Shown here piece after piece: positions 959 to 62,477 of a stretch of DNA of 64,000 nucleotides; positions within the stretch are counted from its first letter, which is position 1; every line of letters starts with the position of its first letter. The notes beneath the pieces are model-generated. The model worked only from the letters and a program-made list of their open reading frames with translations, was not told the DNA's origin and made no database searches. The DNA lies in assembly GCF_030936135.1 (NCBI RefSeq), contig NC_082603.1, positions 25,634,880 to 25,698,879 on the forward strand. The letters run 5' to 3'. The DNA comes from Gavia stellata (lineage: Eukaryota > Chordata > Aves > Gaviiformes > Gaviidae). The translations under genes were made by a program, and so were the position numbers.

Positions 959-2547
959 GTTGGATGGTACAATGCTCTTCTCCAGCCAGCCTTTCATCTA
1001 CCCTACCCAGACGACACACTGGCCTTTGTGGTCCTCAGCACACCTTCAATGTTTGACAAAGCCCTTAAACCTTTTGTGAACAAAGAACGGTTAAAAATAA
1101 TCAGGGATCCTGTGGATCAGTGTGTTTCTCATCATTTATCACGTGTGAAGGAGGTAAGAACCTGAAATACCAATTCCTTTTACTATTGTGGTGTGTAACC
1201 AGGTGGTTGTAGCAGTAGACAAAACCTTCCAGGTTCCTGCCCTTGCTCTTTGGAAGGGTAAAGCCTTATTCATGATGGTAAGAGCATCAACCGGCTGTTG
1301 ACCTGCTTTACTTGCATATTCTGCCTCTTTGCCATTACAACCTGTAGCTATGTAGAGTGCTTTACAGCCATAGTTTGAAAATCCAAGGCCACAAGTGTGC
1401 TGACAGACTTCAGTAGCAGGATGTGGAAATCTGCAGGCTTCACATGTGCCTGATTTGCTAGCATCCAGCACTTCTGTAGTGGCAAATCTTTTCCCATGAG
1501 CCTGGGCTGATGTTTTTTATTGTTCCCAGAAATTCCTTGACCAGAAGGTGGACGTCATCTTTGATTACGAGATTCTGCCAAGCCGAAAGCCCAAGTTCTT
1601 GGCGCAGACAGCTGCCCATGTTGCTGGAGCCGCATATTACTACCAAAGGAAGGATGTGAAGCTTGATCCTTGGGGGAAAAAGGTGAGGCAAAAACACATT
1701 CTGGGAAGAACCACCAAACTGCAATCGCTGAATCATACAACTATTATTTACTCATTAGTTCTTCCTGCAGAAAAATACAAAGTCCAGCTCGCATATAGGT
1801 GCACAAAGTGTTTCAGACAGAAATCAGAAGCTTCCAGGATTCTTTAGGGTGGTAGGGAGATGCATGCATGGAGAAGAATGTCTTGATCTATTAAACCTAC
1901 TTAGACAGGAGAATAAATTTCAGCGTAAAAGACGACCTGTTGCTTGGAGCATTATAAATAGAAAAAAAAATGCACTGTGGTTAATTTCTGTGTTAGATTT
2001 TCAAAAAGGGTCCTCCTTTCACATTACAGGGTGGTGTGCGTGGGTACAGGAAAGTGGGAATGAAATGCAATGCTTTGAGCCACATGTTCAGGAAAGAGCT
2101 TTCATTTCTTCTCTGTATAGCACTCCAACAGAGGGCTAGGAGTGTGAGAAGTTGCATGGAAGCCTGATGCTTTGAACTCTAACCATTACTAGAGACAAAT
2201 TGAGACATCCTAGATCCTTCTTTTTTTTCTTCCAGAAGATCTACGGTGTATGTATCCATCCCAAGTATGGCGGTTGGTTTGCTATCCGGGGTCTCCTCCT
2301 GTTCCCAGATATTCAGGTACCGTTCCTGCAACAGTCTGCTCCTGTTGACTGTGTGAGCACAGAGGAAAAACGAATTGAGTTGCTGGAGCAGTTCAATTTC
2401 CACTGGCAGGACGGCCGCTACAGGGACATAATTGAAGTGAAGGAAAGGTATTCGGAGGAGCAAAAAGCCTACTTTGCCACTCCTCCCGCGGAGAGATTCA
2501 GACTGCTAGGGCTGACACGAGAAGCCCAGAGAAGCACATTTCACTGA
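959..2547 (+). CDS. MMACHC: MMACHC, cobalamin trafficking/decyanation protein (exons 2-4, partial)
   Basis: Cytosolic flavin/glutathione-dependent enzyme that removes the upper ligand of cobalamin (decyanation, dealkylation) before hand-over to MMADHC. Three coding exons are read: 959-1153 (195 nt), 1530-1682 (153 nt) and 2236-2547 (312 nt with TGA). The first two lengths equal human exons 2 and 3, and all junctions are AG/GT in phase 0. Exon 2 opens with [17 protein letters not shown]. Exon 3 carries [17 protein letters not shown], with the His equivalent to human His122. Exon 4 carries [14 protein letters not shown], with the Arg equivalent to human Arg161. The window holds 219 codons plus stop. 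Exon 1 (27 codons in human) was not found in 1-958 and lies upstream. The frame stops soon after RLLGL, so the Pro/Ser-rich tail of human MMACHC is missing. The neighbour PRDX1 is convergent, as in mammals. Identity is very secure. Confidence 0.96.
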
Positions 2548-3895
2548 GTAACATGGCTTGGTGGAGGGGCAGAGGGCAGCAAAATGTAACTCATCAGCAC
2601 CTTCTTTTCCACGGTGCTGAGGAGGACAGTGTGCTGGTACAGAGGCAGCAAATCCAAGCAGCGTGTGCTGCGTCTCAATCCAAACACCAGCTTCTTGGAG
2701 TAAGATGGGGCACTGCATCATAGCACTTGTGGTCTGGAGGAAGGTGGGAGCAGTCTGTTCTGTGCTGTTGCTGATTTGGTGTGTCTCTTGGGGAGTCTGG
2801 TAAGATGCTGATTAACCTTTGGTTGGGAAAAATTACGACACCCTGGCAGCTGGAAAACCGGTGCTGCTCATTAGAGAAGTAATTTCCATTCTCAATAATT
2901 TTCTTCCCAAATGTTTTGGTTTTATTCTTTGTAAGAGTAAAAAAGTTAATTTTCAGTCATTGTACTCTGAAATATTTTTTTTTTTCCTGAACTTAGGGCA
3001 CATACTTTTTTTAGATTCTCCAGCATTTTATTACCCTGTGTCATCACTCTCCCTAGGGAATAAGTGTTCAGTCTTTTCAGTCTTGCCTTCCTTAGAAAGA
3101 AAATTTGTCCTGTATTCCTTCACTTGCAGTGAAGCTGGCTTAAATTAATTAAAAAATATTTTAATGTCTCCTTAACCTCCAAAAGACAAATCTCCAGAGC
3201 TTGAGAGATTGTTTCATTGAGTAGCATGGTCCTGTATATGGAGCAGGAGTGCAGAAAACAGAGCCAACAGCAGCCACCTCCTTCAGGGGAGTTACGAAAG
3301 GGAAAGGGACAGTACAAAGGTCACAGCTCGAGTCTGCTGTTTCCTTTTCACCCAGGGTCAGCTTCTCAGAACAGGGTGACGTCTTTAGGTCAATTTTAAG
3401 CATTTATCCATTGTATAGAGCAGCTGACTGAAATCTTTGGAAAGATGCTGAATAACATCTATGTGAGTGGAGTTTTTACTCATGTTAAGATAAGAAAAAG
3501 ATAATTCTCATGACCTTTTCCTAAGGTAGATGAGGTTTGTATTTGAAGTATTTTTCAGTGCCAGGCCAGCACATGCCACACGCACCACAGTTTTACTACC
3601 ATAGTTTCCTGTTGTACTTTTTATATGGGGGAGATCATAAACCTACACGCACATAAAAAACATTGCATGAAGCACTGTCACACGCAAAGGCAACCAAGAA
3701 GAGAAAAAAAGCAAGAAAATATTAATGACGTTCATGTTACTTATATTGCTGGATAAAACATCTTCAGACAGAAACAGAGCATTTTTTTAGATGACTTTGT
3801 CCTGTTAGATTTGTTCAGAGGTTACAATGGCACTGGGAATCAGGAATTAACTTCTCTTAGAGCACTTTGAGGTCCAGGCCTCATTAAAATAATAT

Positions 3896-3930
3896 AATAA
3901 ATTAAAATGACAGTTTGTGGGAGTTTTGTT
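3896..3930 (+). terminator. Candidate poly(A) signal of MMACHC
   Basis: Overlapping AATAAA (3896-3901) and ATTAAA (3901-3906), followed within about 10 nt by a G/T-rich stretch at 3911-3930, the usual order for cleavage and polyadenylation. This would give a 3'UTR of about 1.35 kb. A weaker ATTAAA at 3148-3153 is an alternative proximal site. Confidence 0.4.
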
Positions 3931-6900
3931 ACTTGACTGCAGTGCAATGCTGCAAATTGCTACGCACTTCTTCCCTTTCCCTCGATATCAACATGATGAT
4001 GCAGAAATACTCACTTTGCAGAACTGAGCCCGTTCTTTTTATTTTATGTTGTGACTCTTGGAGACCCAAACACTAAGGTTGCCCTCACAATAAGTCACTG
4101 CTTGATACAATTTTTCATAGTCTATATACTAACTAACCATAATCAAAATTCAGCATAACAAGTTTGATTTCCTGTGAACAGAGTAGCGAGCATGTGATGG
4201 CTGGGTTTGTTCAGTGCATTTGCTGTTACGAAACAGTCTTTGTTGCTTTCCAGGCTTTATTCACTACATCTGACTAAGGCAGACACCTGACTTACTGTGT
4301 CATAGTGGTATTGCGATTTTTAATTTAAGCAAAATAATGAAATTTGTTTAAAATCTGTTCTTTTGTTATAGAATTACTTCTGGATGAAATGTTGGTTAAC
4401 CTTCCAGAACCTTCCAACTGAACTGTAATTTAACAGGCACTTAAGTTAATGGTACATATTAGTAACATATACAAAATACTGATTCTCTTAGAAGGATAAG
4501 TACAGAATGGAATCAGATTTATCTTTTTACATTACAATTTAAAGTAAAATATTTTGTTATTTTGGGTTTGATTTCTTATAAATATTTAATATTTTGTCTT
4601 AGTTCATTTATTAAACAGATTATAGCCATTGCATTTCAATTTTTGTAATTTATTTCTCTTCACATGGTATTTTCGTTAATAAAATACACAAAATTCTAAG
4701 TACCCCTCAGTACTGAGTATTTTTATTTAAGCAATGCAATGATTTAACTTGTGGAGAGCTAAAGATGTTAAAGTAAGAATTGATACTGAAAATAGGGAGC
4801 TACCCAAGACACACAAAATCCAGTATCTGAAAACAAAAGAAAAAGTTATCTTAGTAGAAGTTAGTAAACTATTATAGCAGGCTCATCTGGGAGATCAAAA
4901 AATAAAACATACAGCACATTATGAATAAGTCTAATAAATGTTTATCTTCACCGGGTCATTTCAGCAAGATCATTTAACAGCAAGCACATGACAGTGCACT
5001 TTCATTTTTTCCTCTGTTCTTGCAGTAACAAAAATTCAAGTTGTCCAGCAATACATAACTGATATTTGAGAGATTTTCCCTCAATAACTTAAAAAGTAAT
5101 ACCTGTAAGTACTGGAATTCTTATTTGTTAAAACATACTAGCGAATACTGAGTCACAGTAAGGGCAAATCTGTGTTCTTTGTGCTTCTGGCAATATAGTT
5201 ATGTGAGGCAGAATGGAGTACAAATATTTAATAACATATTCATGCCTACTACAGTAACTTCGGAGTGAACTGGATTGGTTCTTACTGGCTTTCTCTTAGT
5301 CAGATCACTGAGATCCACAGCTGCAGCTAGTAATTTTCTTTCCTTGCTGGTTGTAGTATAATGGTCTTTGTCTTATAAAACTGACGTTTGAGAACCTGTT
5401 TGACTTATCTCTTGGGACAAGACTAGACATGGTAAGGAACGGATCATTCTTGGATCCTGAGGCATTGTGAAGACATTCTTATTTTCGGCATTTGCAAATG
5501 TCAAACAAGTAATTGCAAATACTGGGATAGATTTACTAGTTCAAGTATCACATTTTACATTTTTAGACAAGTAATTTTTTCACTAAATCCTAATTTTTAA
5601 ATTCAAGTTTGTTTTTTCCTCAATATAACCAGTAGGGTGAGTATTCAAGAGCTGAACAGTAAAATAATTAAAAGCTACTTAAATTTGAATTCAGTTTTAG
5701 CAACAAGGTATTCAGTATATTTCAAGCTAATAAAATATTCTATGGAGAATTAACAAATTTATAATGTTTTCATGCACATAACATCTATCGTTCATCTTCT
5801 CCTTCAGTTACAATTTCCTTTTTTTCACTTCATGAACCTTAAAATAACTGAGATTTTTATTAAGATGTGACAGAAAATACTGATTAAATGAAAAGCACAA
5901 TCTAATCTGGTGTCAAGCAGCCATCAGGATTATTGCTCAGAAAGGGAAAAACTTTTTTTTTTCCCTACCCGTTAAATCAGTTACACCTCAGTGATACAAG
6001 AATAAGCACTAATGTTTGTTTGAGGTATAAAGTAGAGTTTGGCAAACTTAAGGCAATTATCAGGAATTATGTCCTTCTCCTGTAAAAAGGATGGCTTGTA
6101 ACAGTCCTGTCTCCCTCTGAACTATGGAAGACTAAAGATGGTTTGCTGTATAAATCAGTGCTGGTGCGGCAGACAAAAATAGTCAAACTTATGAGAGTAG
6201 TGCACTCTTCTGTTTTTTGTTTAGGTATTTTTATATGTTTGTTTTGGTTTTGTTTTTTTTAATAGGACTACATTGCCCTCCTGTGGGTCAGAAGCATAAC
6301 TTTACTCATTCACTATAGTGTGCATGGTCTTTTATTCATTTGTGACCGAAGTTATTAGCGGTGTAGCTACTATTTAACATGGGTTAAATTACAGAAAATG
6401 CACAGTGACTTCAATTTAACTAAAAAAAAAAAAAATCTCAGTAAAGACTTCCGTATTTCTGAAAACAAGAAGTGGTAGCTACTGATCAGTGCTACTGTGG
6501 TTATCAGCACTCTTCGTTCAGCCACAGGCATAAAGTACATTTAGAAAGTTAGCTTTGAATACTGATTTAAGCGGCAACAGTTCCAAAGTTCTTCCTCTAA
6601 GGGGAAGTGGGTTTTGCCGTTTACTGCAGTGGAGAGCCAGCTGTACCTCTGCAACCTTAACTTTCACAAATTTATCTGCCAAAATGGACCAATGTATTCA
6701 TAAGACTTTTTGCTGTTACGTTGGCATCCTGTCATATCGTATATCCTGTGACATATCATCAATCATGTTTGCTTCAGAAAGCAAACAGAGCACTTCCCTT
6801 CTAGGTTTTCAAGGAGGAAACAGAAAGGATCAGGGAACACAAACATACTTTGCTTTTCTCTCTGTGACTGAAAAACAGACAGATGTTCACATTACTTAGG

Positions 6901-9180
6901 AAAAACAGGACTTTAGATTAAAAAATGGGGTGGTATTTTTTTTTCCAATAAGTGAAATATAATAATGGGAAATATGGTGGAAAAGGTAACAAAAAATTAA
7001 TTATCACAGAATGAGCAAGAAGATATTTTAGTGGAATGTTTAAAATCTCTCCAATATTATACCACACACAATCTTCAAAATGTGATTATGTATGTATAAA
7101 AGTATTTGAAATGGCTACTTCCTGAAAAAAATAAATTACATAACTACCATTCATTAGTATTATATCTATAATACATTTGTCATTTTGGTTTTTTTTTTAA
7201 TGTTTGTACATAATTCAGTGAGAAAGCAATTTTATTTTTAATAACTGCATGCTTTATTTTCCCAAAACACTTCTTCCTAAAGGAAATTCTGAAAGAGAAT
7301 TTGATTTTTTTACGTCTTCAAAGTTTCTGGAAATCACACACCTTTACACTAAGTTGCCCTGGTTTTTTTCCCTCATGTAAAACAAAGCATAGGATAGGAG
7401 AATTCCTGTAAGTAAATTAAAGGAAGAAGTGGGGGGAATTTTTCTATGAATGCATAAAACCTCATATTCCTTTTAAATGAACTAGCTAGTTTTAGGTTTT
7501 AATTTCATGTCATAACCTTTTTTCAAGTATTGTTCTGACTCGTCTTCCTGAATCATTCACTGCTGCTTCAATCTTTTTTTTGACAGACTCTTCTTCCAAA
7601 ATACAAAAAACTACAGCAATGAAAAGGAAACAGAAATTCATCTTACTTCTGTGAAAAGTGAATGCGATTAAATACATTAATTTTAAATTGCATTAAGTTT
7701 TAGTAATTGTATATTAAAGATTTTTTTTTGCTCTTGACAAAGGATATAAATCTGTCAGTGCGGATACTTCAAAAAATATGTTGCTGTAGAATATGGAACA
7801 TAAACCTACTGGGCTCACAGTTTCAGAGGACATTAAGTGCAATCTTAATGAGTTCTTATATATTCATACAGTTATGGTCAAATGGTATCTTGCACAGAAA
7901 CATTCTAAATTCAGATGCGTATCCCATAATAAGTGCTATGATTTAAGTTTCAGGTGAAAGAGCCAAGTTTCACATTAAAGTCCAAACCTATCATCACTAG
8001 GTGTGGTAAGAAGAGCTTACCACAGGCAGATCGTTGTGCAGGAACACTGCAAACAATTCACAGCGTGATGGCAACCCGTTCTGCAGCCACGTGTGTGTGC
8101 AGCACAGATTGATTACACAGTCATTCGATTTGCACAGGCTTTGGCCTGTAAAGCCATTCTGTAATATCATGCTCCTATATTCTGTGAGGTGCTTAAATTA
8201 TACCAATATTACAGGTGAAGACACTGACTAGTGACCTGATATAAACACGGACGTGTGGACAGCCAAAGTAGAATCTGTTCTGACTGTACATTAAGGTAAA
8301 TTCATCTGGTTTATCTCTTCTAGTATTAAAAATCGAAGGTAATATATTAATGATCATAAAGATACTTGCTATTTGATTTCCTCGTTTAGTGTTCTTTTTG
8401 TATGTGCCATTAACTTGTATCAAAAAACACCAGTGACAGCTTTAACACACTTTCTGAATTGACGTCCAAATGTGCTGCATTCCTACTAGTATACACTGGA
8501 TAGAGCTAACTACCCCATGGCTTCACACCACTCCTCTGCAGTACAATCATTTCTCCCTTTGCAAAGTAGAATCATGACATTTTCTAAGTCCTCTATCTGT
8601 CTAGCAAGATACTTCAGAATGTGTATTTACACAGACTGACATTTAATACTGAACATTGGACCCACTGATAATTTCAGAGGCTATATATCATATTTTTCAA
8701 ACTATTAATATGATAAACCCCATTATTTTAACATCATCTTTACATGGCTGCTGTTTTGATGCATAATATTACTAAAAAGTACAGTCATGGGGCTTTTATA
8801 AACATACTTTCCTAACCAAAGGGCATCATTTTGCAATACTTGTGAGATGTAAACTACTTGCCTTTGTTCTTTGAACTGTATTGATTTGTTGGACAATCCG
8901 ATAAACTATTCATCAAAGGCATGATAAAAAGGCTGGAGCATTTGTTAAGAAAATAGTAGTTTTCAAATTTAGTAACTTTGTAGAGTTTTTTAGTTTCAAA
9001 ACCAGTGAGATACTCGTTTTGTTACAAAGTGCTAATTCTTTAAACATTACTAAGCAATTTTTTTCTTATAAACATCTACAAATAAATACGCAATTGTTAA
9101 TTTTGAAATAACATACTCATAAAAGATGTACAAAATCCAGTAAAGGTTAGGTTCTGTATGTCAAATATCAAAAATCACAT
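3931..9180. other. A/T-rich intergenic or long-3'UTR sequence, no gene seen
   Basis: Low-GC sequence rich in A and T runs. No spliced coding exon, tRNA or recognisable transposon end was found on either strand. The 114-codon open frame near 6555 starts with TTG and has no splice context. Part of this stretch could be alternative 3'UTR of MMACHC or of the minus-strand locus at 9.4-11.6 kb. Confidence 0.5.
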
Positions 9181-9184
9181 TCCA

Positions 9185-9190
9185 TTTATT
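9185..9190 (-). terminator. Candidate poly(A) signal of the minus-strand locus
   Basis: TTTATT on +, AATAAA on -, about 190 nt beyond the TAA at 9376-9378. The minus-strand sequence after it is T-rich. Other such hexamers lie further on, so the choice is tentative. Confidence 0.3.
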
Positions 9191-9375
9191 CTATGATAAA
9201 CATATAATGTATAGAATTTAAGTCTGTTGCACTGTTTTGTATTACACACAAAAAAAGTCCTGTTGATGCTCTTGCACAAATGTTATTCTCTTTGAAAACT
9301 TACAGATACCTATCACAAAAGTGAATAAATACTCTTAATTTTAGATAATATATGAAGAACACAATGTGTAGAAGA

Positions 9376-9532
9376 TTAATTTCCTTCCGCTTTTACGCAG
9401 TCTTCAATAAGATCAGGCATATCCGTACCTAAAGCCACGTCTGTAACACTGCAGTGAACAGGACCTTTGCCGTTTATTTTGAGGGCACGATCACACCGCC
9501 CGAGAGGTGATGTCAGGGCTACTTCACCACAG
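9376..9532 (-). CDS. Terminal coding exon of an unrecognised minus-strand gene
   Basis: On the minus strand an acceptor (T-rich tract ending in taacag) leads into an exon whose single open frame runs 51 codons to TAA at 9376-9378. It begins with the last base of a split codon, then CGEVALTSPLGRCDRALKIN, and continues to the C-terminus DLIEDCVKAEGN. The other two minus frames stop within the first few codons. GC and CpG content are clearly above the A/T-rich flanks, as expected for coding sequence. I do not recognise the protein. It has four cysteines and no membrane segment in this exon. The human MMACHC-PRDX1 interval has no counterpart that I know of. It could be a sauropsid-retained gene or a young or decaying gene. 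Upstream candidate exons and the CpG island are listed separately. Confidence 0.55.
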
Positions 9533-9696
9533 CTGTTAAAAGTTCAGTTTCAAAGACTGACAAGAGTTTAGTCTTGTTAACTACTGTTGCATACAATTTT
9601 GAAAGAATATTTAATTACATGCAGTTTTACAGATGTCACACCAAACAGATAAAATCAATATATATTTATAGAATTACATCTACCATAGCTGCTTAC

Positions 9697-9729
9697 CAGT
9701 GTAAAGACCTGGTGCTGTGTAGTTCAGCC
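9697..9729 (-). CDS. Candidate 33-nt internal exon of the unrecognised minus-strand gene
   Basis: Minus strand: a T-rich acceptor ending in ttttgag, 33 nt, then a near-consensus donor CTG|GTAAGC. The only frame compatible with the terminal exon reads AELHSTRSLH, with split codons at both ends (1 nt in, 2 nt out). Its 2-nt overhang TG joins the C of the terminal exon to give Cys. A micro-exon, so chance occurrence is possible. Confidence 0.35.
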
Positions 9730-10323
9730 CTCAAAAACAAGAATATAAATATATTGAAATACAGCCAATTTCATTATAATATTGTCAGTAGATGACTGCT
9801 AGTACATTTGTTTCCATTGGCACTCTGCTTTTGAGAGGAATGCAGTATCATAAATTTGTGTAAAAATCTGTAAAAGATACATACAGGTATTTAAACAGAT
9901 CCAAATAATTTTTCAGGGATTATTTTAAGACTGAAACTTCATATGCTTGTAAAACGTTCTTTTGCAAAGCAGCAAAGCAGTTATATAAATCCCCAGTAAT
10001 CATAGCAATCAGCTACAAATAAAGAGAAATGGAAAAGAGAGACAGCAAGACGTATTTCAGTTTCCCTTTATCTGACTAGTCTGAGTAAGACAGTCTAAAG
10101 AAATTAATGAATACAAGGTTGTTTTTATAATAAGCACCCAAACTAGAAAAAAAGACGTGCAATCACTCACACATTAAAAAAAGCAAACGTCACATTCAAG
10201 AGTCTGTCCTTTCCAAATAGCATCTGCTGTATACATCTCCAGGGAAACCCCCCTGAGCAGTACACGGTACTGCAACAGCCATCAGTCTTGTCATCGAACT
10301 GAGAATTGCTGATGTGCTTTTAC

Positions 10324-10399
10324 CTCACTGGGAAATACGGCACCCGTTGATCATGAAAGCGAAACCAGTTCATAATGGTGATGAAAATACAGTATGTGC
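10324..10399 (-). CDS. Candidate internal exon of the unrecognised minus-strand gene
   Basis: Minus strand, 76 nt: two leading bases, 24 codons (beginning TYCIFITIMNWFRFHDQR) and a trailing AG, then donor GTAAAA. The phase (2 in, 2 out) fits both the 33-nt exon downstream and the exon at 10825-10916 upstream. The acceptor (tttttt...accaag) is only moderate. The first half is hydrophobic and could be a short membrane or signal-like stretch. Protein family not recognised. Confidence 0.3.
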
Positions 10400-10824
10400 C
10401 TTGGTACGTGAAAAAACGTTTCTCAATTAATGGTTATAGTTATTTGAATGTTGGAAAAATTACACCAGTCCAAGATGTTACGGTACTAGGAGTGGAGTGT
10501 AAGCCCCACGACACTTAATGGAAATTCCAAGCTGCATCTGACCCAATACTGAGTTCAAGCAAAGAAATAAACCCAGACTCTTCTTGACTGGAAATAGTTT
10601 TGTGTGTTACCCATTTTGTGTGTTATACGCTCGGAAACGTCAAAATGACAGTGTGGCAAACATCCCACAACGCCTCACATGGCTGAAGAATAAAAAAACC
10701 CCAAACTGTTTAACTGCATTGATTCCCACGGTCAACCATTTGGTGCAAACATACAATACAGTCCCTAACCCACCAGGCGTTTTAGTTCTCGGCTGTTTTG
10801 AATTTCCACATCGCCGTCACTCAC

Positions 10825-10916
10825 CAGTGACTATGATGGTTAAATACATACTGTTCGTAGCGTCTCTGTGTACCAGCTCCAAGTGGACAGCAGCAGACCA
10901 GTTGTAATGAAATGTT
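10825..10916 (-). CDS. Candidate 5' internal exon of the unrecognised minus-strand gene
   Basis: Minus strand, 92 nt: one leading base, 30 codons (TFHYNWSAAVHLELVHRD, then a hydrophobic end) and a trailing G, followed by the strong donor GTGAGT. The phase (1 in, 1 out) fits a donor at 11211 upstream and the 76-nt exon downstream. The acceptor lacks a good pyrimidine tract, so the 5' edge is uncertain. An in-frame ATG lies within this exon. Confidence 0.3.
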
Positions 10917-11210
10917 CTCAGTCATAGATTATTATTAATTATTTTTAAATTAATATCTACTTTACTACTTAATCATCGAGATTAATCGCTTTTCCAAATA
11001 GGAAAATAAACACGTGAATACAACTGTTGCCACTGGGACATTTAGAAGGTGGGAGGCATTAAGAACACGTTGTTGGACGGTATTAGATATCACTAAAGGC
11101 AAAAGCGAACGTAACTGTGTCAGCAGCGAAGGAGAACGTCAACAGCTGATAGAACCTTCCTGTCAGAAGGTCAGTCTCCAGTGGCCGGTATGCAAAGGAA
11201 ACAGCCTTAC

Positions 11211-11640
11211 TTCAGAGGCGTTGATTCAATAAACGAAGCCCGCGGGTAGTTCGGCGGGACGTTCCTACACCCGGACCCCCCACCGGGGCAACCCTGACCC
11301 AGGCTCCCAGCAGCAGCCGCCCCGCGAAGGCCGCAGGCCGAGGGACGCCCCGCGGGGCGGCGGCCCGGGGCAGGGAGGCGGGGCACCGCCCGCGCGCCCC
11401 CGACCGCAGCCAATCCCGGCGGCCGTTGGGAAAGCGCGGGCGGCGCGGCGCCCCCGGTGGCGGGAGGGCGAGGCTAGCCCGCCCCCCTGAGGAGCGGCGG
11501 GCTGCCGGCGTCAGGGCTTCCGCCCGAGCCGGGAACAGCCGTAAGGATCCGGGGGCTCCGCCGCCCTCAGACCCGCTTCCTCCCAGGGCCTGGGGTGGGA
11601 GCACGGCGACTCCCTCTGCCTCTTGGGAGGGAGCTCCACG
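11211..11640 (-). promoter_or_regulatory. CpG-island promoter and probable first exon of the minus-strand locus
   Basis: An abrupt block of very GC- and CpG-rich DNA inside A/T-rich sequence, typical of a vertebrate CpG-island promoter. A CCAAT box sits at 11410-11414 and there is no TATA box. On the minus strand the island runs into a good donor, GAA|GTAAGG, at 11211/11210. The one frame open to that donor reads SFIESTPL and leaves two bases that match the phase of the 10825-10916 exon. That frame has no ATG before an upstream TAG, so this exon may be mostly 5'UTR. A plus-strand or bidirectional promoter cannot be excluded. Confidence 0.6.
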
Positions 11641-11739
11641 GCCAGAACGGGAGAGAACCCCTTCATCCCCTGCGACAAGGGGTAGGCGAGAGGAAGTAGT
11701 AAGTCTGTTCTTTTTAAAACACGTTTTTTACCTTTGAAC

Positions 11740-13395
11740 GGTGAATACACTGGAGGGATTTGAGAAAGGCCCTTTGTATCATGGTGAGGGGTTGAACTTG
11801 GTCGCTGATGTAAAGGACTTCAGTCTGGGCACAGAACAGGCTGATTTGCCACACCATGAGTGAGCAGGACTACATCATAAATGCTACATGAAGCGGCCCA
11901 GACAAAACAGGTGCGATTTTACTCCTCAACAGGAGCAGAAGTCACTTCAGTTACATCAGGGTGAAGATCCCCCTTCCACAGGACTGGACCACACTAATAC
12001 CATACCCTCCAAAAGAACTGCTGTAATCAATTCTGTAACACTTCAAGGCTAATATAGCTAGATACAACTAAGGTAAGGTTTATATTAGATCAGCCCTAAT
12101 TTGACTTTTTATGTGCTAGGAAAGGAAGTTTGATAGACAAAGATAGCTTTGTGCTCATCCATATGATTAGTATTCGTTCACTTACCTTGAACCATATCCT
12201 ATATATATATATATAAAAATGCTCCTGTTACTTCTCAATGCCACGCTAGGATGTTAGCCTCATTTACGACCTTGAAAATAGTAACTTGGATTTTAAAATA
12301 AGCAAAAATTACCCAACTAAGCATCACTTTCACATATTTGTAGCACTTCAGACCCAGGGGAGTGGCTATTTTAGTATTTATTGCAGTATTGGGTAGTAAG
12401 GCTTCTGCAGTAAGTCTATTTTTTCCCCCAACTGCACAAAACAAGTTTACTACTCAAGGCATGCAACTTTCACTTCTGACTCATGTAAGTAGCCCTGGGC
12501 CTCAACTTTGTTATTGCTTACTTTAAGCAGGACAGAACTTGTTTACTACTTGAGGAGCTGAAGTTAGATGCAAGGTCTTAGCCTTTCACAGTTTTAATCT
12601 TCACAGGTACATGAAAATCACAGGGTTCTAACTCACTTACATTGCTAGGCAATAGCTGCTTCCCAAAATCCTCAGCTCTGAAGTTCAGGACTTTATTACA
12701 AGCCACCTTTAACTATGAAGCTATACAGCTTTAGTGTAACTTAAGGCCGTAGTCATGTGCTTTGAGTTTTACAGTATGCACATAATTATTTGGAATACAA
12801 AGATTGAAGATAAGGCTGAGCACATCTGAGTACCAGATTTTATAGTGACACCCTTCTTTTGATCTTATGACTAAACTAATGGATAACTGACATACTCTCA
12901 ACTCCCAATCCACGTAGTGGGAGAGACTAGGGATGAATATTGTATACCCAAGGAAGTTTGCTTTCTAGAAAGCCCAGACTTCCACTCCTGTACAGACACT
13001 GTCCAAACTGAATGTTGGATTCCCAGAAATTTAGCATAAACAGTCATAGTTTTGATGGAAGTGAATGCAGAAATCAGTAAGCTGACACAGTGCATGAAAA
13101 CATGACCAGCCTTTGTCAGTCACATCTATGCTTCATGCTCTGGGCACTTGTAGTATTGCTGAAATCTGTCAGACTAATACTAAACCATGTTCCTCTACCT
13201 AATAGCAAAGTCAAGAGTGTAAGGAGTACTTTACTAGTGCAACATGAAAACTAAGTGTTAGTATCTCCATTCTAGTGGAGCTGTAAAAGGCCTCTAGGAA
13301 TTGAGATGTCTACAGACAGCTCTGTAGACAGAGCTTTCAGAAGTGCAGCCTGCATTGCTTTCAGGTCTCCTGATGTCTATACATAAGAACAGTAG
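11740..13395. other. Intergenic sequence between the CpG island and the PRDX1 3' end
   Basis: Moderate-GC sequence with few long homopolymers. A short TA-repeat lies near 12200. No exon with supporting splice sites was found on either strand. The open frames here are short and without recognisable protein similarity. Confidence 0.5.
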
Positions 13396-13416
13396 ACAGT
13401 ATGCTCTTTCCACAAG

Positions 13417-13422
13417 TTTAAT
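13417..13422 (-). terminator. PRDX1: PRDX1 poly(A) signal (ATTAAA)
   Basis: TTTAAT on + reads ATTAAA on -, about 280 nt after the stop, followed on the minus strand by T/G-containing sequence. This gives a 3'UTR of about 300 nt, similar to mammalian PRDX1. A canonical AATAAA also overlaps the stop codon (13699-13704). Confidence 0.5.
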
Positions 13423-13699
13423 AGAGTTACAAAAGGATACCACTGCTCTATATGCAACACATGGCTAACCACATACACTGCATTGTCACTAAAGTCAACA
13501 GGGCTTGATGTACAGATATTGATCATTAAGATTTTCTATGAAGGTAGTGTCAACAGGACAAACTTTCCTTCAAGTGAAAAAGTTACTGTTTATACCTATA
13601 GCATGATCCCTTGACTCAGATGCAATGACTTAATCAAAGTTCAGTAACTGATGCTTGCTCTTTACGTAAGGCATACTAGTTTCCACTCAGACTGAAAGT

Positions 13700-16600
13700 T
13701 TATTTCTGCTTGGAGAAATACTCTTTACTTTTCTGAACATCAGGCTTGATTGTGTCACTGCCAGGCTTCCAGCCAGCTGGGCACACTGAAATGAGAAGAA
13801 TGTTTAAGTCTTACCAGCTGCTGCTGCAGAACATGTTCTACACAACATTAAAGCAAACTAGCAACTCAAAACATGTATACATCTTTGCAACATACAGAAG
13901 GTGTATTATTCACTGTGGCATTAGCAGCATTACATTCAGTTTATTTTACTAATTTCCATTTGTTCACTAGGTAGTAGCACCCAAGGAACCAGGTGTTTGC
14001 CCATGGGACAGTGGGCCCTTTACACAGGCAGCTCTCTCCGCCCCACTTAAAAGCTTCATAGAAGCTTGACAGGAAAGTAATACCAACTCCAGCAGCCTGA
14101 GTCAGAAAGCTTTACAACTATTACAGTACACTTCTCTCCTTGGATCCAGTTAAGTCTATATTGTCCTTATCTTTAATCAACCCTCATCTCATTCTCCAGT
14201 TTAATGGGGAGGGGGAAGAAGAGTTTAAGTCTCTTGTTCCCCTACATGGCTATCAAAAGGCCACCAAGATACAGAGGTTGCATGGCCTCTGAATTGCAGC
14301 AACTCCTAAGCAGCATTTTTTGGACACTGCCTTCCTTGTATACAGCCATGCAAGGCTTAATGCATGCTCCACACAAGACTGGCAATTTTAGCTACAGTAT
14401 TCTCAGCTTGAGTGTTGCTACATGCCTTATGCTGGTCTACCTTGGTTTAGGCGAGTCTGCAGTCCTAGTTGTGAAGAAAAAGCTTTTGCCAGCTTTTGAC
14501 TACTCCAGGGCACAGTAAACCCCAAAAAGCTTCATTTGCATGACATGTGACTGCTCCATCAATTACAGATGTCTCCTCAGCTGACAGAGGATGGCATACA
14601 AGTTCAGAAACACTGACTTTCTTCAGTCTATAGCATAGCCACAATAGCAGCTTGTTTTAATAAAATCTGCCATTGATTTACCAGATCTGAAGCAAGTTAA
14701 ATATGACCAGAAGCAATACATATCATAAACTAATGACAGCTGAAGACTACTAATACCTACATAGCAATTTTGAGTTTCTATAACCTGGTTCAAACCTTCT
14801 ATCTGCAGTGCTTTTTTTCTTCAATTCCTGGAGAAAAGCTACCAGTCTCGAGCACCTTTCACTCTTGGACTACAGGCACAAAGACTCTCTCCATTTTCCC
14901 CTCACTATATAGGGACACAAATATCAGCAGGCTTTCTGGGAATTTAAATGCTTTGTCTAACAGACTGCATAAAACATTGCATTAGTACTCATGGTCTCAA
15001 CCTACCAAATCTGAAAGCAGAGTTTAAATTATGCTTATCCTTGCAGGTTAAGTTATTTTATGTTTTTAATTTCTGTCTCAAGTATATTCTGTGTCTAATT
15101 GAAAAAGAGATAACTGCTATGTGCTCAACAAGACATCCACCACCAAACTGATTTAAGTGATATCTCAACATTACCAAGTACTCAATGGACAATTAACTGG
15201 AACAGGATAAATATAGCACTATGCTGTCCTTCAACAAGTAGCTTTACAGAACCAGCTGCATTTCAAAAGGCACAATTACATGCTGTGCACAGACCAATCA
15301 TGTACTTAGTACCTTTCAGTAAACCTTGATTTAACCTGCCCAGTTAATATTGTTCTCTAGAAAAAATATTTAAGACTAGAAAGAGGAAGAACTCTTACCT
15401 TCTCCATGCTTATCTGTAAACTGGAAGGCCTGGACAAGTCTGAGGGTTTCATCAACACAACGGCCAACAGGAAGATCATTGATTGTTATCTGCCTCAAGA
15501 TCCCCTTGTCATCAATTATGAACAGACCCCTAAAAAAAAAACCAGCCCTGAAGTCAAACACAGCTGTTGAGAGACTGATTAGACCGAAGTGAGTTTCAAA
15601 AAATCAAGTTCAGTATTCTATTACAGCAGTAAGTTGTGTCATCTAGTATTACCAACCTCCTCCTAAAAACTAATACCTTCAGCGTATGCATAGCACCGAA
15701 ACACAAGCAGCTGAAAGCCTAACATTCAGCAGGAACTAGAAGGGACAGGAGGTAAGTAACACTAATGCAGGAGAGCAACACTTCCTACTTAAGGAAGATA
15801 CTAGTGGAAAAACAAAATGAAAGAGAAACCCAAGAAAAAGTGGATTGCAAGAGAGGCATTCTTACATTCAAAGAAAAACTACATTGTTCTCAAAAAACCC
15901 AACCCAGCAATGGCTATCAGTTAGTCCTCCAAAGTCATGTTAAGAGTTAGCAGAAGTTCAGCTTCTTCAGCAACTTTACCTAAACAGTTGATTAAAAGAT
16001 AAGGCTTGGGTTTTAATTAATCTGTACTTTAATCATTAGACTAAATACCTGTCATCAATTTCACAACTATGTAGGTCTTGCATTACCCATGTTTGCAGAA
16101 GCGCACCTGCATGAGACTCCTGCACTGTGTAGATAGGTAATCAAAGGGAAGCAGCAGGCATTTATCTGGCTTACCAAAAAAAACGAACTCTAAACACTAA
16201 GGAGAACCAAGTAGCACCTCCCCTTGTAGGAGTGTTTGATAGCTTGAAGCAGTTTACATCTAGAATAGTTAATAGCTTCAGCTTGCTGCAGGTGTTCAAG
16301 TATATGCAAGCTCTACATTCACATGACATGCTCATGTATTGCAATGTAAGACTTAACGGCAAGTTCACCATCTTGCGTATTACCTGTATGCAATACCTTC
16401 ATCCTCTTTAAGTACTCCATATTCTTTGGCAATGGCACGTTTTGTGTCAGAAATCAATGGGATTTTCATAGTACCCAAACCACCTTGTTTCTTAGGAGTA
16501 TTGATCCTAAAAGAAGGAAGTTTAAATGTTAAAGATATGGACAGTTCAGAATAAAGTATAAGGTACAACAGAAGCCGCTCCCTTTGCAATTCATACCCAG

Positions 16601-56700: not shown

Positions 56701-59700
56701 TGACTTGCATGCCAAAGTTACTGGCCATACTCCTTTACTGCACACTTCCCCCAGATGTTTTCTACTGGTAGAATAGATCATGCAACGCTCCTACATGGTA
56801 CCAGAAGTCAAATCAGTGCTACACAATAGCAGGTTCATTAATAACATTGCCACTTAAATGTTTGATGTGAGGAACACAAATTCAGAAACAGTCTTATTTG
56901 TACACAGCTTGGCAGCTATCTTGCTGAAAACGCTTGTTATCTGTAGCATGAAGTCCAGCAACTGACCAGTACCTCCAGGGCTGCTCAGGATCCCATGGCT
57001 TCAGTGGGAGTTCACAGTGCATTTGTGAGAACTGAATTCTAGGTAAGTTTCCGTTCTAGATAGTATGAAGTTAAAACAAGGACTAAGGTAGCCTGGATCT
57101 ACTTTAGTCTACAGTGCCTAACACTTTCAGCAAGATGGCTGCTGCTGCTGAGAATTTAATGTATCTGTGCTTTTGCATCACACATCTAACCTGTCACTGG
57201 AAGGATAAGGGCTGAATATAATATATTCTGCCTGACTCCATGTGAAGCAAGTGTAGTAACAAGTGTTCTCATTCATCTACTTTCCTTGTAGAAACAGAAG
57301 AATCTGAAGAGGAAGATAAAGAAAATGATAAAGCTGAAGATGATAAAGAGAATGAATTGACAGTGGAAGACAAGGTGAGATTGCTGAGCTCTGTTATCGG
57401 TGCCCATGGAAGAATGCAGTATTAGTCTAAATGTCATGTTAATGTCTTTATAAAAGCTCACTTGTATTTCATTTAGTCCTATGTAGGAAATGACTTTTGA
57501 AAACCAGTATTGCCTAAGGAAGGCGCAGCGTTATGCATAGTCCGCATTGTAGTATCTTGCTCAGCTCTGTAAATTTGCGCAGTCTACTGATGAGTATGCA
57601 GCCTGGTAAATGTAGGGGCAGGCAGGGAGAGTTGCTTTAGCTTGTCATTATAGTTAGTGACTTGTAACAGTTTATTCTCTACTTGTACACCCAGTCCAAT
57701 AAGCCATGATTAGGATGGAAATCTAGTGGCAAGTGTAGTGCTGCTTAAATCTGAGATGTTACCTTGATGTAGCAATCAAAACACGTGGAAAAATCTGAAG
57801 CCTATTAGAGTGGTACTAAGCATGCTATACAACTATCTTGAATAGAGTATCTGTCTCTGCCTCAGACTATTCTAATGAAGTCCAAAAGCTCATTTAAAAA
57901 AAAGTGGAACATCAACTCCTTTATTTAGCTTTTGATTCATCTAAATTGCACTTGAAATAAATCTTATTCTTAGGATAATATTGGTGCTTGGTGCTCTGTT
58001 TTTTCTTGAAAAAAGATGGAGGCCATAGCGACCAACAACGTAAGCTTGTGTTCTACTTGAAACACCTTCACTACAGGAAAAGTCTCAGTTGATGCAATAA
58101 CTTCTTCTGCATGTTCTTTTTTTTTCCTTCTGGGGTAAACTGTTTACCTCTTAAAGAAATTTTTTCCTTGACAACACTGCTTAGAAACTTAATGTTGTTT
58201 GATGTGATGTGTAACCAAGCCATTTAATCTTTAACACATTTCTAGTCTTTACAGGAAAGTGAGGAGGATGAAATTGGAAATCTTGAGCTAGCCTGGGACA
58301 TGCTGGAGTTAGCAAAAGTCATCTATAAGAGGTAAAGGCTTAAGTCCTAATTTGGATATCTGTTAGAGAAACTCATTGGAAATTGGGGGGGGGCATAAGC
58401 AGTTAGTGAATGTAGCATATTCTGATCAGGATTTGAAAACTACTTTTTTATTTAGACAAGAAACAAAAGAAGCTCAGCTCCACGCAGCTCAAGCTCATCT
58501 AAAGTTAGGAGAAGTTAGCATTGAATCTGGTAAGTAATACAATTCTCACGTACAGTTCCACTTTCTGTCCTTCTCTATTTCTTTCTTTAACTCACCTCAG
58601 CTCATTTTAAGGCTGTTAAGATGAAAACAAAATACATTTTGTTTAATTATGATAGTGCAGTCATGTGAGAAGCTTTACAGTCAATGCTTTTCCAGAGCAG
58701 TGAAAGAAAGCTTCAAGTAAGAAGTAATGTTTTACCAGATCAAAACCAGCCGTGTGTTCTGCTTTATAGGCAAGGATTGGTTAGCTTCAGAAACTGAGGA
58801 CTCTTCCCTTACTGAAGTAGCGAGTCACTGAGCTCAGCAGGAGGTGTTGGTACCTTGCCAGTTCCAGAACATAAAGACTGCAAATAAAAAAAATGGTTGA
58901 TTCTTTTAGATTTTCCAAAATACTACCGTATGGTCAGGAAAGACCCTGATGTGTTATGCATGTGAAAAAAGGAGTGTGAAGGAAGACTCAGGTTTATGCC
59001 TTCTAATGAGTTTTTAATCTCATTAAATCCAAGTAGGGTGTAATCTTCCTCTATGGCAAGCATTGGAAATAATGTAACAGGTTTTTGGACAAGGGCTACA
59101 AAATGAGGGTCGTATTTTACGTCATAGAACATGTTGAATGGAGAGCTTGACCGGGAGGTAGCAGGGGACTGTCCTTAGCTCTAGATTCAAGTTGCACTCA
59201 ACTCATGGCAGTAGGTAAAATAGCAGGATTGGTGTGCCTGGTTTTGTTGGCTGCTTAGTTACTGTGGTGCTGTAAATGGACAAAGCAGTCTTGAGAGAAC
59301 TAGAGGAACTGGGCTCTAAATCTTTTTGAGGTGTGTGAGGGGACAGCGCTGGACTGTGAGTGGTGTCACTTGATAATCTGAAAGCAGCCTGTCCTGAACT
59401 CAAGTGCTGTATTCAGTGGTGGTTCTGTTTTCAGACTATATAAAGTGCAATAAAATAAAGAGTAACTGAATAAGGGTTTAGCGCTTGCTTGTTTGGATAA
59501 ATGAGTATGGTTTGTTGAAGACTTTTTGGCTTTCTCCTGTAGAAAACTACACGCAGGCTATAGAAGAGTTTCAGGCCTGCCTGGCCCTGCAGCAGAAGTA
59601 CCTGGAGGCTCATGACCGCCTGTTAGCTGAGAGTCACTACCAGCTGGCGCTGGCGTACCACTACAACAGCCAGTTCGATGAGGCGGTTTTGCAGTTTGGC

Positions 59701-62477
59701 AAATCCGTAGAAGTCATTGACAAGAGAATGGGTAAGTGGATTTCTAAACTGCCTAGAGAATGTGAGAGCTTTCACAAGTCAAAGCAGACTTTGTTAAACT
59801 GCCCTAAAAGTAGTCAATACGCTTATTACCTTGCTGTGCAAATGTTTACCGGTCTGAAAGTGGTAATAGGCTATACTGGTAGCAGAATTGTTGAAATAGC
59901 ATGTGTTAGCAGACACTTGCCTCTGGGTACTGATAACTGGACAGCTACTTTGTCTTGAGGTTTTTTTGCCATAACTGTTTCATCCTAGCAATGCTTACTG
60001 AACGAATAAAGAAGACAGAAAATGGGTCCCCTGAAGATGAGAAGGAGATTGAAGAACTGAAGGGACTGCTTCCTGAAATTAAAGAAAAGATAGAAGATTC
60101 AAAGGAGTCTCAAAAGAGTGCAAGAGTAGCTGAGCTGGCACTGAAAGCAACTCTGGTTAGTGTGTCCTGTGGTTTCCTTTTAAAAACATTCTTCCAGTGA
60201 AACTTGAAGTAAACCAGTAATGGGAGGAGCTCAGACTTGATTGTACAGATTGGGGGCTGATGGTTGCTTACAAATGTTAGGGGTTGTGATTGCAAGAAGG
60301 AAGCTGAGGCAGCTGAGATCTAAAGAGAGGGTATTTAGTAAATACACTGACATTAATTGTTCCAAACTAAACTGGAATTTGATAGGCATCTATAGCAATT
60401 TAATGTGTCAGGTCTGGAAATGATAGGTCAGCCAAATGTGGGAGTTGACTGAGTGTTGCATCACTGTGCAAGCTCTTCATCTGTCTGTCCTGTGTGTAAG
60501 CAGAATGCGGTGTTGAATAGATACCCAGAATTTGTTCTACTGTGTTTCTTCTGCTTTTTCTTAAGGTTGGAACTACATCTGGCTTTGCACAAAGTGAAGA
60601 CAGTGGTTCTGTTTCCACAGTAAGTGAATTCAGGGTGGATGGTGAGAATTCCTGCCTGCTTTAAGGATTACTGATTGCTGTTACTTATGTGACAATGTTA
60701 TGTCTTGCAATAGATTCCTGTAAGAAAAGCAGCTGATGGTGCATCTCAGTGTGTTACAGACATCTCTCACCTAGTCAGGAAAAAGGTGAGTCCAGAAATG
60801 ACTAGTTGAACCAACAGTTTGTTAAAGTACCACTGGCTTGCTCTGTATAATTGGATTTCTTAGCTTGAAGCTTTTTTCTTAACTTAGTTCTATAATGGAA
60901 AAAACAGTTTAAAACCAGAAATAGTGCATGAAACTCCTTTCCACTGGGAGCCAATTAGTCTGGGAACCATCCAGCCTCCAGGAGACTAGTTCCTGATGGT
61001 TCAGCACCCCGCCTGACCCACACTGGTTTAACTTCCAAGCTGAGTTGTGTGGCTTCTGCAGGCGTTCTCTGAACAAGTGCCTTCCTCTGCTGAGGACCTG
61101 CAAGAAGAGCAGGGTGGCCTGCAGATCTTAAGAAAAGGGCAAGCAACCAGACTGAGTTGGGCTCCCTTCTTTCCAAGTGGAAATGGAGAATTGGACTTAA
61201 TAAATAGCAAAGCTAGTCTAATGGCTTGTAATGATAAACTGCCTCTTAAAGACATAATGTATTGAGCACTAGGTTCCTTTAAAGGTATATGGTTTTTTTC
61301 TAAACTGTTTGCAAATATGTCTAAAATTATCCCCTGTGGGAGCTTAGTTTTTATTTTTGTATGCTGCTCTGGCACAGCCTGGTCTGTGTTCTGTTAGCCT
61401 CTTTCAGTTCAGGTTTGCCTGGAGCAACTTTGATCTGCTTTACACAGGTGATTTAAGTGTCACAGATGCCTTAAATCTACCCCCTTAAGTGTTACCTGGC
61501 TCAGCAGTTGTGTGTGTTTCCTTGCCAAACTATAACTAAGGATAATCCAGCACTGTAGATACTAGCACCTAAATAATGCCTTACTGGAAATCCTTTGTGG
61601 TTGAGACCTCTATACCAAAGCTTCAGAACTTTGTTAAATTTTAACACTATAAGTATATGTCTTGAACCTGGCAAGTAGAGGTTGAGTAGATAATGTGCAA
61701 TGACATCTAGATGCTAACTTTCTAACAAAAAAAAAAATTTAAACTTGTACATAGTGAAGACTAAACAATTTTGTCTTCAGAGGAAACCAGAGGAGGAGAC
61801 TCAACAGGGAGACAATGAAGCTAAGAAATCTAAACCAGAACCGGCTGTCAATGGTGGTGGTGGGGACCCTGCCCCCAGTGGAAATGAGGTTGCAGAAAAA
61901 ATGGAAGAGGAGGTGGGCAGCTGAGTCAGGAGTCTGTGCCATGCTTATTTTCTTTTTCCTCTGTTGAGGCATGGTTTTGTGCCTGGTAGATGTACTGGTT
62001 TTATTGCCTGCTGGTCTTCATAAAGCTCCCCAGATGAGATGGGGAATATTCCCCAGTTGGCAGGATGCATGTTGTACCATGGTGTCTTGCTGCTCTGTGG
62101 GCTGGGAAGACACCAGGTGCAGAGACTTGCAACCTGTGGGGTGGGGCGGAAACATGTTCTGGTTTTCAGGTTGGGCTGAACCACAGCACAGGGCCCTTCC
62201 CCAGAGTATTTTTATCTACTTTTACCACTCCTGGGTTTAATACTTATCACCTGGGCTACAATTGTTATGTCAGTATTTTAGGATAGTGTTGGGCTCTGAA
62301 GACCAGCAAAGCATGAGTAGTCAGCTAAGTCTTCAAATTACAAAAACCTTGAACTGCTGCATGAATTGGTTCTGTAAGGCAGTGTCTTGTTCTTGAAAAA
62401 CAAAATCTTTCCTTTTCTTTTAGACAGAGAAGAGGCCACAAGCAGAATCAGGGGCTGCAGTTGAAAGCACAGTATGA
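50714..62477 (+). CDS. NASP: NASP, histone chaperone (TPR/SHNi-TPR), 15 coding exons
   Basis: Nuclear chaperone that stores and protects soluble H3-H4 and binds linker H1. Exons: 50714-50775, 51927-51977, 52828-52938, 53497-53577, 53735-53832, 54516-55409, 57292-57374, 58246-58331, 58456-58529, 59543-59731, 59989-60155, 60566-60619, 60714-60785, 61781-61912, 62424-62477. Total 2208 nt, 735 aa, phases consistent throughout. TPR1 is near 46-75 ([19 protein letters not shown]). A second TPR helix follows ([17 protein letters not shown]), interrupted by a very acidic Glu/Val/Ala-rich block (135-432, exon 6). TPR3-4 lie at about 463-577 ([43 protein letters not shown]). Then come a helical Glu/Lys segment and the basic signal VRKKRKPEEE, and the C-terminus is VESTV. 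Exon 6 is absent from somatic-type isoforms in mammals and is phase-symmetric here. The initiator may instead be Met22 (exon 2). Confidence 0.97.
51167..51184. promoter_or_regulatory. 18-bp perfect palindrome with CLEAR/E-box core
   Basis: CGGCGTCACGTGACGCCG is its own reverse complement. Its centre, GTCACGTGAC, is the palindromic E-box used by USF, MAX and TFEB/TFE3 (CLEAR element). It lies in the CpG island, within NASP intron 1. Confidence 0.5.
54516..55409 (+). other. NASP: NASP large acidic cassette exon (tNASP-type)
   Basis: 894 nt, phase 1 at both ends, so skipping removes exactly 298 residues and keeps frame, leaving a protein of about 437 aa (human sNASP is 449). The encoded block is almost all Glu, Lys, Ala, Val and Thr, with repeated AVEEK/AVEKE-like units and a near-exact tandem repeat at its 3' end. 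Antisense open frames of more than 200 codons across it are by-products of this skewed composition. Confidence 0.85.
55310..55414 (+). repeat. Tandem 54/51-nt coding repeat at the 3' end of NASP exon 6
   Basis: Unit 1 (55310-55363) reads [18 protein letters not shown]. Unit 2 (55364-55414) reads [17 protein letters not shown]. They differ by one Lys codon and a few silent changes. The used donor (55410) falls inside the end of unit 2. Confidence 0.85.
59825..59940 (+). repeat. Dispersed repeat, copy 1 (+), in NASP intron
   Basis: Shares about 110-130 bp of recognisable similarity with the minus strand of 63385-63500, including an identical 25-base core at 59851-59875. Transposon family not identified. 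It lies in the intron between exons 59543-59731 and 59989-60155. Confidence 0.6.

Follow-up and report, generated by a model that had tools for sequence, protein, structure and literature searches.

The window is a 64,000-nt stretch of Gavia stellata DNA, located at 25.63-25.70 Mb of contig 10, and four genes were recognized in it. MMACHC exons on the plus strand were identified by Pfam (E 9e-45, 1e-21 and 7e-25) and the gene also by PDB search (E 8e-39), while minus-strand pieces of a peroxiredoxin were recognized by Pfam and specified as peroxiredoxin-1 by PDB (E about 1e-28). The plus strand further holds AKR1A1 (aldehyde reductase), seen as a 31-residue piece at 29284 (E 1e-9; the longer frame at this piece gave no Pfam match), and NASP, matched at 59482-59955 (E 4e-27). 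The stop codons of MMACHC and PRDX1 are at 2545-2547 and 13700-13702, respectively, and the two genes are therefore arranged tail-to-tail, with the candidate stretch studied here lying within the interval of about 11.2 kb that separates them. These gene identities bear out the original prediction, in which the candidate was placed between MMACHC on the plus and PRDX1 on the minus strand. The stop-to-stop spacing of about 11.2 kb (2547-13700) contrasts with the tail-to-tail overlap in people, where, according to the accessible text of PMC5754367, MMACHC and PRDX1 partially overlap at their 3' ends. A minus-strand AATAAA (13699-13704) overlaps the PRDX1 stop codon, and an ATTAAA begins further on, at 13422.

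Composition of the candidate stretch

9376-9532, minus strand: candidate 3' exon of 157 nt, comprising 51 codons and TAA, with 8 CpG and AT-rich, CpG-free flanks; coding status putative

The 157-nt minus-strand segment had been described as holding one 51-codon frame to a stop, with the strand's two other frames closed and with GC and CpG contents above those of its flanks, and each of these properties was reproduced. The frame leads from the exon start at 9532 to TAA, the two other minus-strand frames contain 5 and 4 stops, and GC amounts to 0.484 versus 0.293 and 0.280, with 8 CpG versus 0 and 0, in flanks equal in size to the candidate stretch. Measured from stop to stop, the open frame spans 55 codons (9543-9376).

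The observed to expected ratio (o/e) of CpG in the candidate stretch is 0.89. Its 8 CpG were equaled by none of 1588 overlapping 157-nt windows from 2.8-11 and 12-20 kb, a set that leaves out the CpG island at 11.2-11.76 kb, and its GC was reached by 28 of them. Isolated CpG patches, taken as 157-nt segments that hold at least 8 CpG, have no more than 1 CpG in either flank and exceed the GC of each flank by more than 0.12, numbered two in 264 kb of the chromosome (the window plus 20 further 10-kb stretches), the candidate being one. The second patch, of comparable strength, is located at L021:5354-5510 and has a GC of 0.63 and 10 CpG. The uncommon feature of the candidate stretch is thus the CpG patch and not the open frame.

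Coding potential and gene models

Among 5000 dinucleotide shuffles, 41.5% have at least one of the six frames open over the full length and 3.8% a particular one, and because of this frequency the open frame is unsurprising and not beyond chance. One explanation is chance alone, the segment being a functionless patch of locally higher GC whose open frame is nothing special. This would agree with the shuffle frequency and with the weak splice site described below; however, the CpG count unmatched across the 1588 windows and the finding of two such isolated patches in 264 kb make this explanation quite improbable.

Some properties of the frame are those of a true coding exon, which would here be the terminal exon of a minus-strand gene for a small protein, with 51 codons in this exon and 85 aa in all if the simplest model, with two exons, applies. 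GC at the first, second and third codon position is 0.65, 0.47 and 0.35, a pattern resembling PRDX1 exons, and the RNY excess is likewise PRDX1-exon-like, with 35% RNY codons in the candidate frame versus 14% and 18% in the strand's other two frames. The codon-position chi-square of 16.1 lies, before conditioning, above 99.3% of 3151 non-coding interval windows and 98.7% of base shuffles, but an open frame by itself creates such asymmetry. With openness conditioned on, the periodicity was reached by 49 of 1324 open genomic windows of like GC, a set which may include some true exons, and in 3% of 2000 open shuffles; the coding-like periodicity is accordingly weak, with p about 0.03-0.04.

Several further observations weigh against a coding exon. 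The codon-usage score, calculated with a codon table, was no better than that of shuffles: 16% of non-coding windows equal the candidate frame, two of the stretch's other five frames score higher, and 92% of shuffles reach or exceed the best score among the six frames. Across the interval, 11 open segments of 120 nt with comparably coding-like values were counted at 9 places, the candidate included, and single-sequence structure prediction of the 51 residues yielded a pLDDT of 46.8 without a confident fold, which says little. In addition, a motif scan located a poly(A)-type hexamer within the frame:

9473-9478, minus strand: AATAAA within the 51-codon frame, which speaks against coding

The acceptor, which the original prediction had called good, scores -0.39 with a Shapiro-Senapathy-type matrix, compared to 3.1, 5.5, 6.0, 6.0, 6.4, 7.4 and 10.6 for seven reference acceptors of MMACHC and PRDX1, each chosen as the top-scoring AG within a short distance of the exon start. 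It ranks at the 83rd percentile among 9484 AG of both strands, and its score is reached by 119 of the 669 AG that the minus strand has between 2.8 and 13.6 kb. What the prediction had described is real, but it had been over-read.

10825-10925, minus strand: hypothetical upstream exon end, with ATG at 10925-10923 and a donor whose intron starts at 10824; model only

The donor with an intron from 10824 has the top minus-strand score in 9.3-11.8 kb and joins in frame to the ATG, a point in favor of a coding exon; linked to 9532, it would yield the modeled 85-aa frame. Among 15 one-intron joins listed, five give ATG-started frames of at least 60 codons (85, 69, 68, 65 and 60), and four two-intron models comprise at least 70 codons (161, 120, 85 and 85). 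Given the many trials, these models are probably unremarkable, and among the candidate joins no upstream start-bearing exon stands out. Two further arrangements were rejected: a donor in the island at 11210, which joined to the candidate gives 139 codons in frame but no ATG upstream of the candidate's internal one, and a plus-strand exon (acceptor 9401, donor 9507), which would be 106 nt long and is closed by a stop in each of its frames. Considering the evidence on both sides, including the lack of a homologue in the databases searched (see below), a coding exon is unlikely. Its more specific form, a lineage-restricted small protein gene of birds with a CpG-island promoter in the PRDX1-MMACHC interval and the 51-codon exon at its end, appears quite unlikely. 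The 51-codon reading alone could be luck.

Search for relatives

The failure of the original prediction to match the frame to any family was upheld in the databases searched. Pfam and NCBIfam returned 0 families for the 55 residues at E up to 10, and PDB gave no significant match, the best one extending over 20 residues at E 0.062, or at E 0.029 when the 85-aa model served as query. This resemblance is to coral fluorescent proteins (9442-9501, minus strand, E 0.03-0.06) and was taken as chance because Pfam remained silent at E up to 10 for both the 55-residue and the 85-aa query. Phage records, searched at E up to 1, yielded nothing. In scans sensitive to close relatives only, 14 stretches in IMG/VR and 80 in GTDB species genomes shared a short peptide pattern, and none was confirmed as a relative. 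For ten open frames of 9.4-11.8 kb, among them the candidate, Pfam at E up to 1 reported two weak hits, both for a single frame and both below the cut-off (E 0.074 and 0.19), and for five further coding-like segments two weak sub-cut-off hits, again for one of them (E 0.12 and 0.14).

In the 1.32-Gb genome of the bird itself the candidate matches itself alone, both as DNA (E up to 0.001, in a search that skips very common words and does not prove single copy) and as protein (E up to 10). As a control, a 51-aa PRDX1 exon retrieved itself and three paralogues (70, 63 and 43% identity); therefore, no repeat family or retrocopy parent is in sight. A transposon or processed pseudogene, either of which had been named beforehand as an outcome that would overturn the prediction, is unsupported by this single match. 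More generally, the abrupt change in composition toward either flank and the undecayed CpGs could be expected of a remnant of inserted foreign sequence, such as a transposon, retrocopy or viral fragment, but with no second copy or parent in the genome and no relatives in Pfam, IMG/VR or phage records this origin is highly improbable.

Two other minus-strand frames of the interval, of 57 and 55 codons, lie in the same register in AT-rich DNA at 5199-5540, separated by one stop. They have one match in the genome and none above the cut-off among families, and could represent chance or an old pseudogene.

For the candidate stretch Rfam gave no match, and the RNA folding energy was unremarkable on both strands (z -0.24 and -0.51). 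This absence of a structured-RNA signal, the isolated and CpG-rich patch between CpG-free flanks, the lack of a second copy and an open frame expected by chance are all compatible with a conserved non-coding regulatory element, e.g. a hypomethylated enhancer with its CpGs and higher GC retained in AT-rich DNA, in which case the frame would be incidental. However, of ten motif cores searched for, no more than three were present, each of them once: CCGCCC, CAGCTG and an ETS-like core. A regulatory element is a possible, if somewhat unlikely, explanation and ranks second to the transcript proposed below.

Strand skew, an orphan CpG island and a putative transcript

9000-11200, minus strand: strand skew like that of PRDX1 introns in sign and size, suggestive of minus-strand germline transcription

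In the introns of mammals and fish, TA and GC skews linked to transcription accumulate, birds not being covered in the accessible text (PMC2927911). Expressed as (A+C)-(G+T), the skew follows the known genes of the window in its sign: it is negative for the plus-strand genes MMACHC, AKR1A1 and NASP (-0.04 to -0.09 at the MMACHC and AKR1A1 stretches) and positive for the introns of minus-strand PRDX1 (+0.04 to +0.11). Between 9.0 and 11.2 kb it amounts to +0.070 +/- 0.021 (0.054 without runs of at least five equal bases), and between 4 and 9 kb it is near zero. From the PRDX1 end to the island (11.76-13.4 kb) the skew is weakly positive as well, 0.030 +/- 0.026, and below the value on the island's far side; PRDX1 read-through could therefore contribute. 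A two-segment fit between the stop codons had its best change point at 9048, just past the AATAAA at 9190, with a permutation p of 0.014 for the whole interval and 0.025 below the island; the position is poorly constrained, with a bootstrap 5-95% range of 5.8-10.6 kb. Skew of such size, in either direction, was present in 42 of 140 windows from the 20 chromosome stretches, genic or not. These values make it plausible that the minus strand is transcribed in the germline as far as about 9 kb, and would fit a separate unit as well as PRDX1 read-through.

11201-11760, no strand assigned: CpG island, GC 0.70, CpG o/e 0.88, with no gene recognized in the window; possible promoter of a minus-strand unit
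9185-9190, minus strand: AATAAA, a possible poly(A) signal 185 nt past the stop codon of the candidate frame; AATAAA hexamers are common in this AT-rich DNA

Going by their positions, the other three of the window's four CpG islands are those of the PRDX1, AKR1A1 and NASP 5' ends. A DNA search of the bird's own genome with 10450-11850, which includes the orphan island, returned the query itself alone at E up to 1. On the low-coordinate side of the island the CpG o/e is 0.67 over 1.2 kb, versus 0.17 on the other side, and these shoulders are more lopsided than those at the three gene-linked islands. As a pointer of direction the shoulders were rejected, since those of the three known islands do not reliably point downstream.

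An unannotated minus-strand transcribed unit around the candidate stretch is plausible on the basis of the skew and the orphan CpG island. We tentatively favor, with confidence short of even, the interpretation that the candidate belongs to the 3' part of a minus-strand transcript of the PRDX1-MMACHC interval, one that is unannotated and probably non-coding. The transcript would start at the orphan island (11.2-11.76 kb), proceed along the minus strand and end near 9.1 kb, between PRDX1 and MMACHC, with the candidate stretch as its terminal exon or in the neighborhood thereof. It would probably be a long non-coding RNA with an incidental 51-codon frame, and there is a minority chance that the frame encodes a small protein. 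Four observations argue for this transcript: the skew sign follows known genes and is positive in 9.0-11.2 kb, as in PRDX1 introns; the change point at 9048 falls just beyond an AATAAA; a fourth CpG island has no recognized gene; and the CpG patch is rare and has no second copy. Points against it are the loose change point, the common size of the skew, the weak acceptor and the undirected CpG shoulders, as well as the published sign of GC skew at gene 3' ends, which turns negative in most species according to the accessible text of PMC2927911.

As for transcription itself, its start, its end and its splicing, we infer them here from the DNA sequence alone, and in this the putative transcript differs from the CpG-island-promoted intergenic lncRNAs to which it is otherwise similar. 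Such lncRNAs adjoining a protein gene are the general kind to which it would belong, given its orphan CpG island, minus-strand skew and short frames without a protein homologue. Among the titles and opening lines of abstracts listed for MMACHC/PRDX1 antisense, chicken MMACHC, bird CpG-island lncRNA and transcription-linked skew, none reports the element.

A comparison with the human PRDX1/MMACHC locus in epi-cblC, as described in the accessible text of PMC5754367, reveals the same neighbors in the same tail-to-tail orientation, and minus-strand transcription past PRDX1 would likewise run toward MMACHC. In contrast, the human genes share part of their 3' ends, and their antisense transcript arises by mutant read-through, whereas here about 11.2 kb and a separate CpG island lie between the stop codons. 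The evidence supports neither a minus-strand unit nor a protein exon strongly. If the candidate were a protein exon, it would add one more unannotated microprotein. A minus-strand unit with its own island, if true, would form a natural parallel to the human disease in which PRDX1 antisense transcription silences MMACHC, and MMACHC-directed transcription from a separate promoter could then be compared with read-through.
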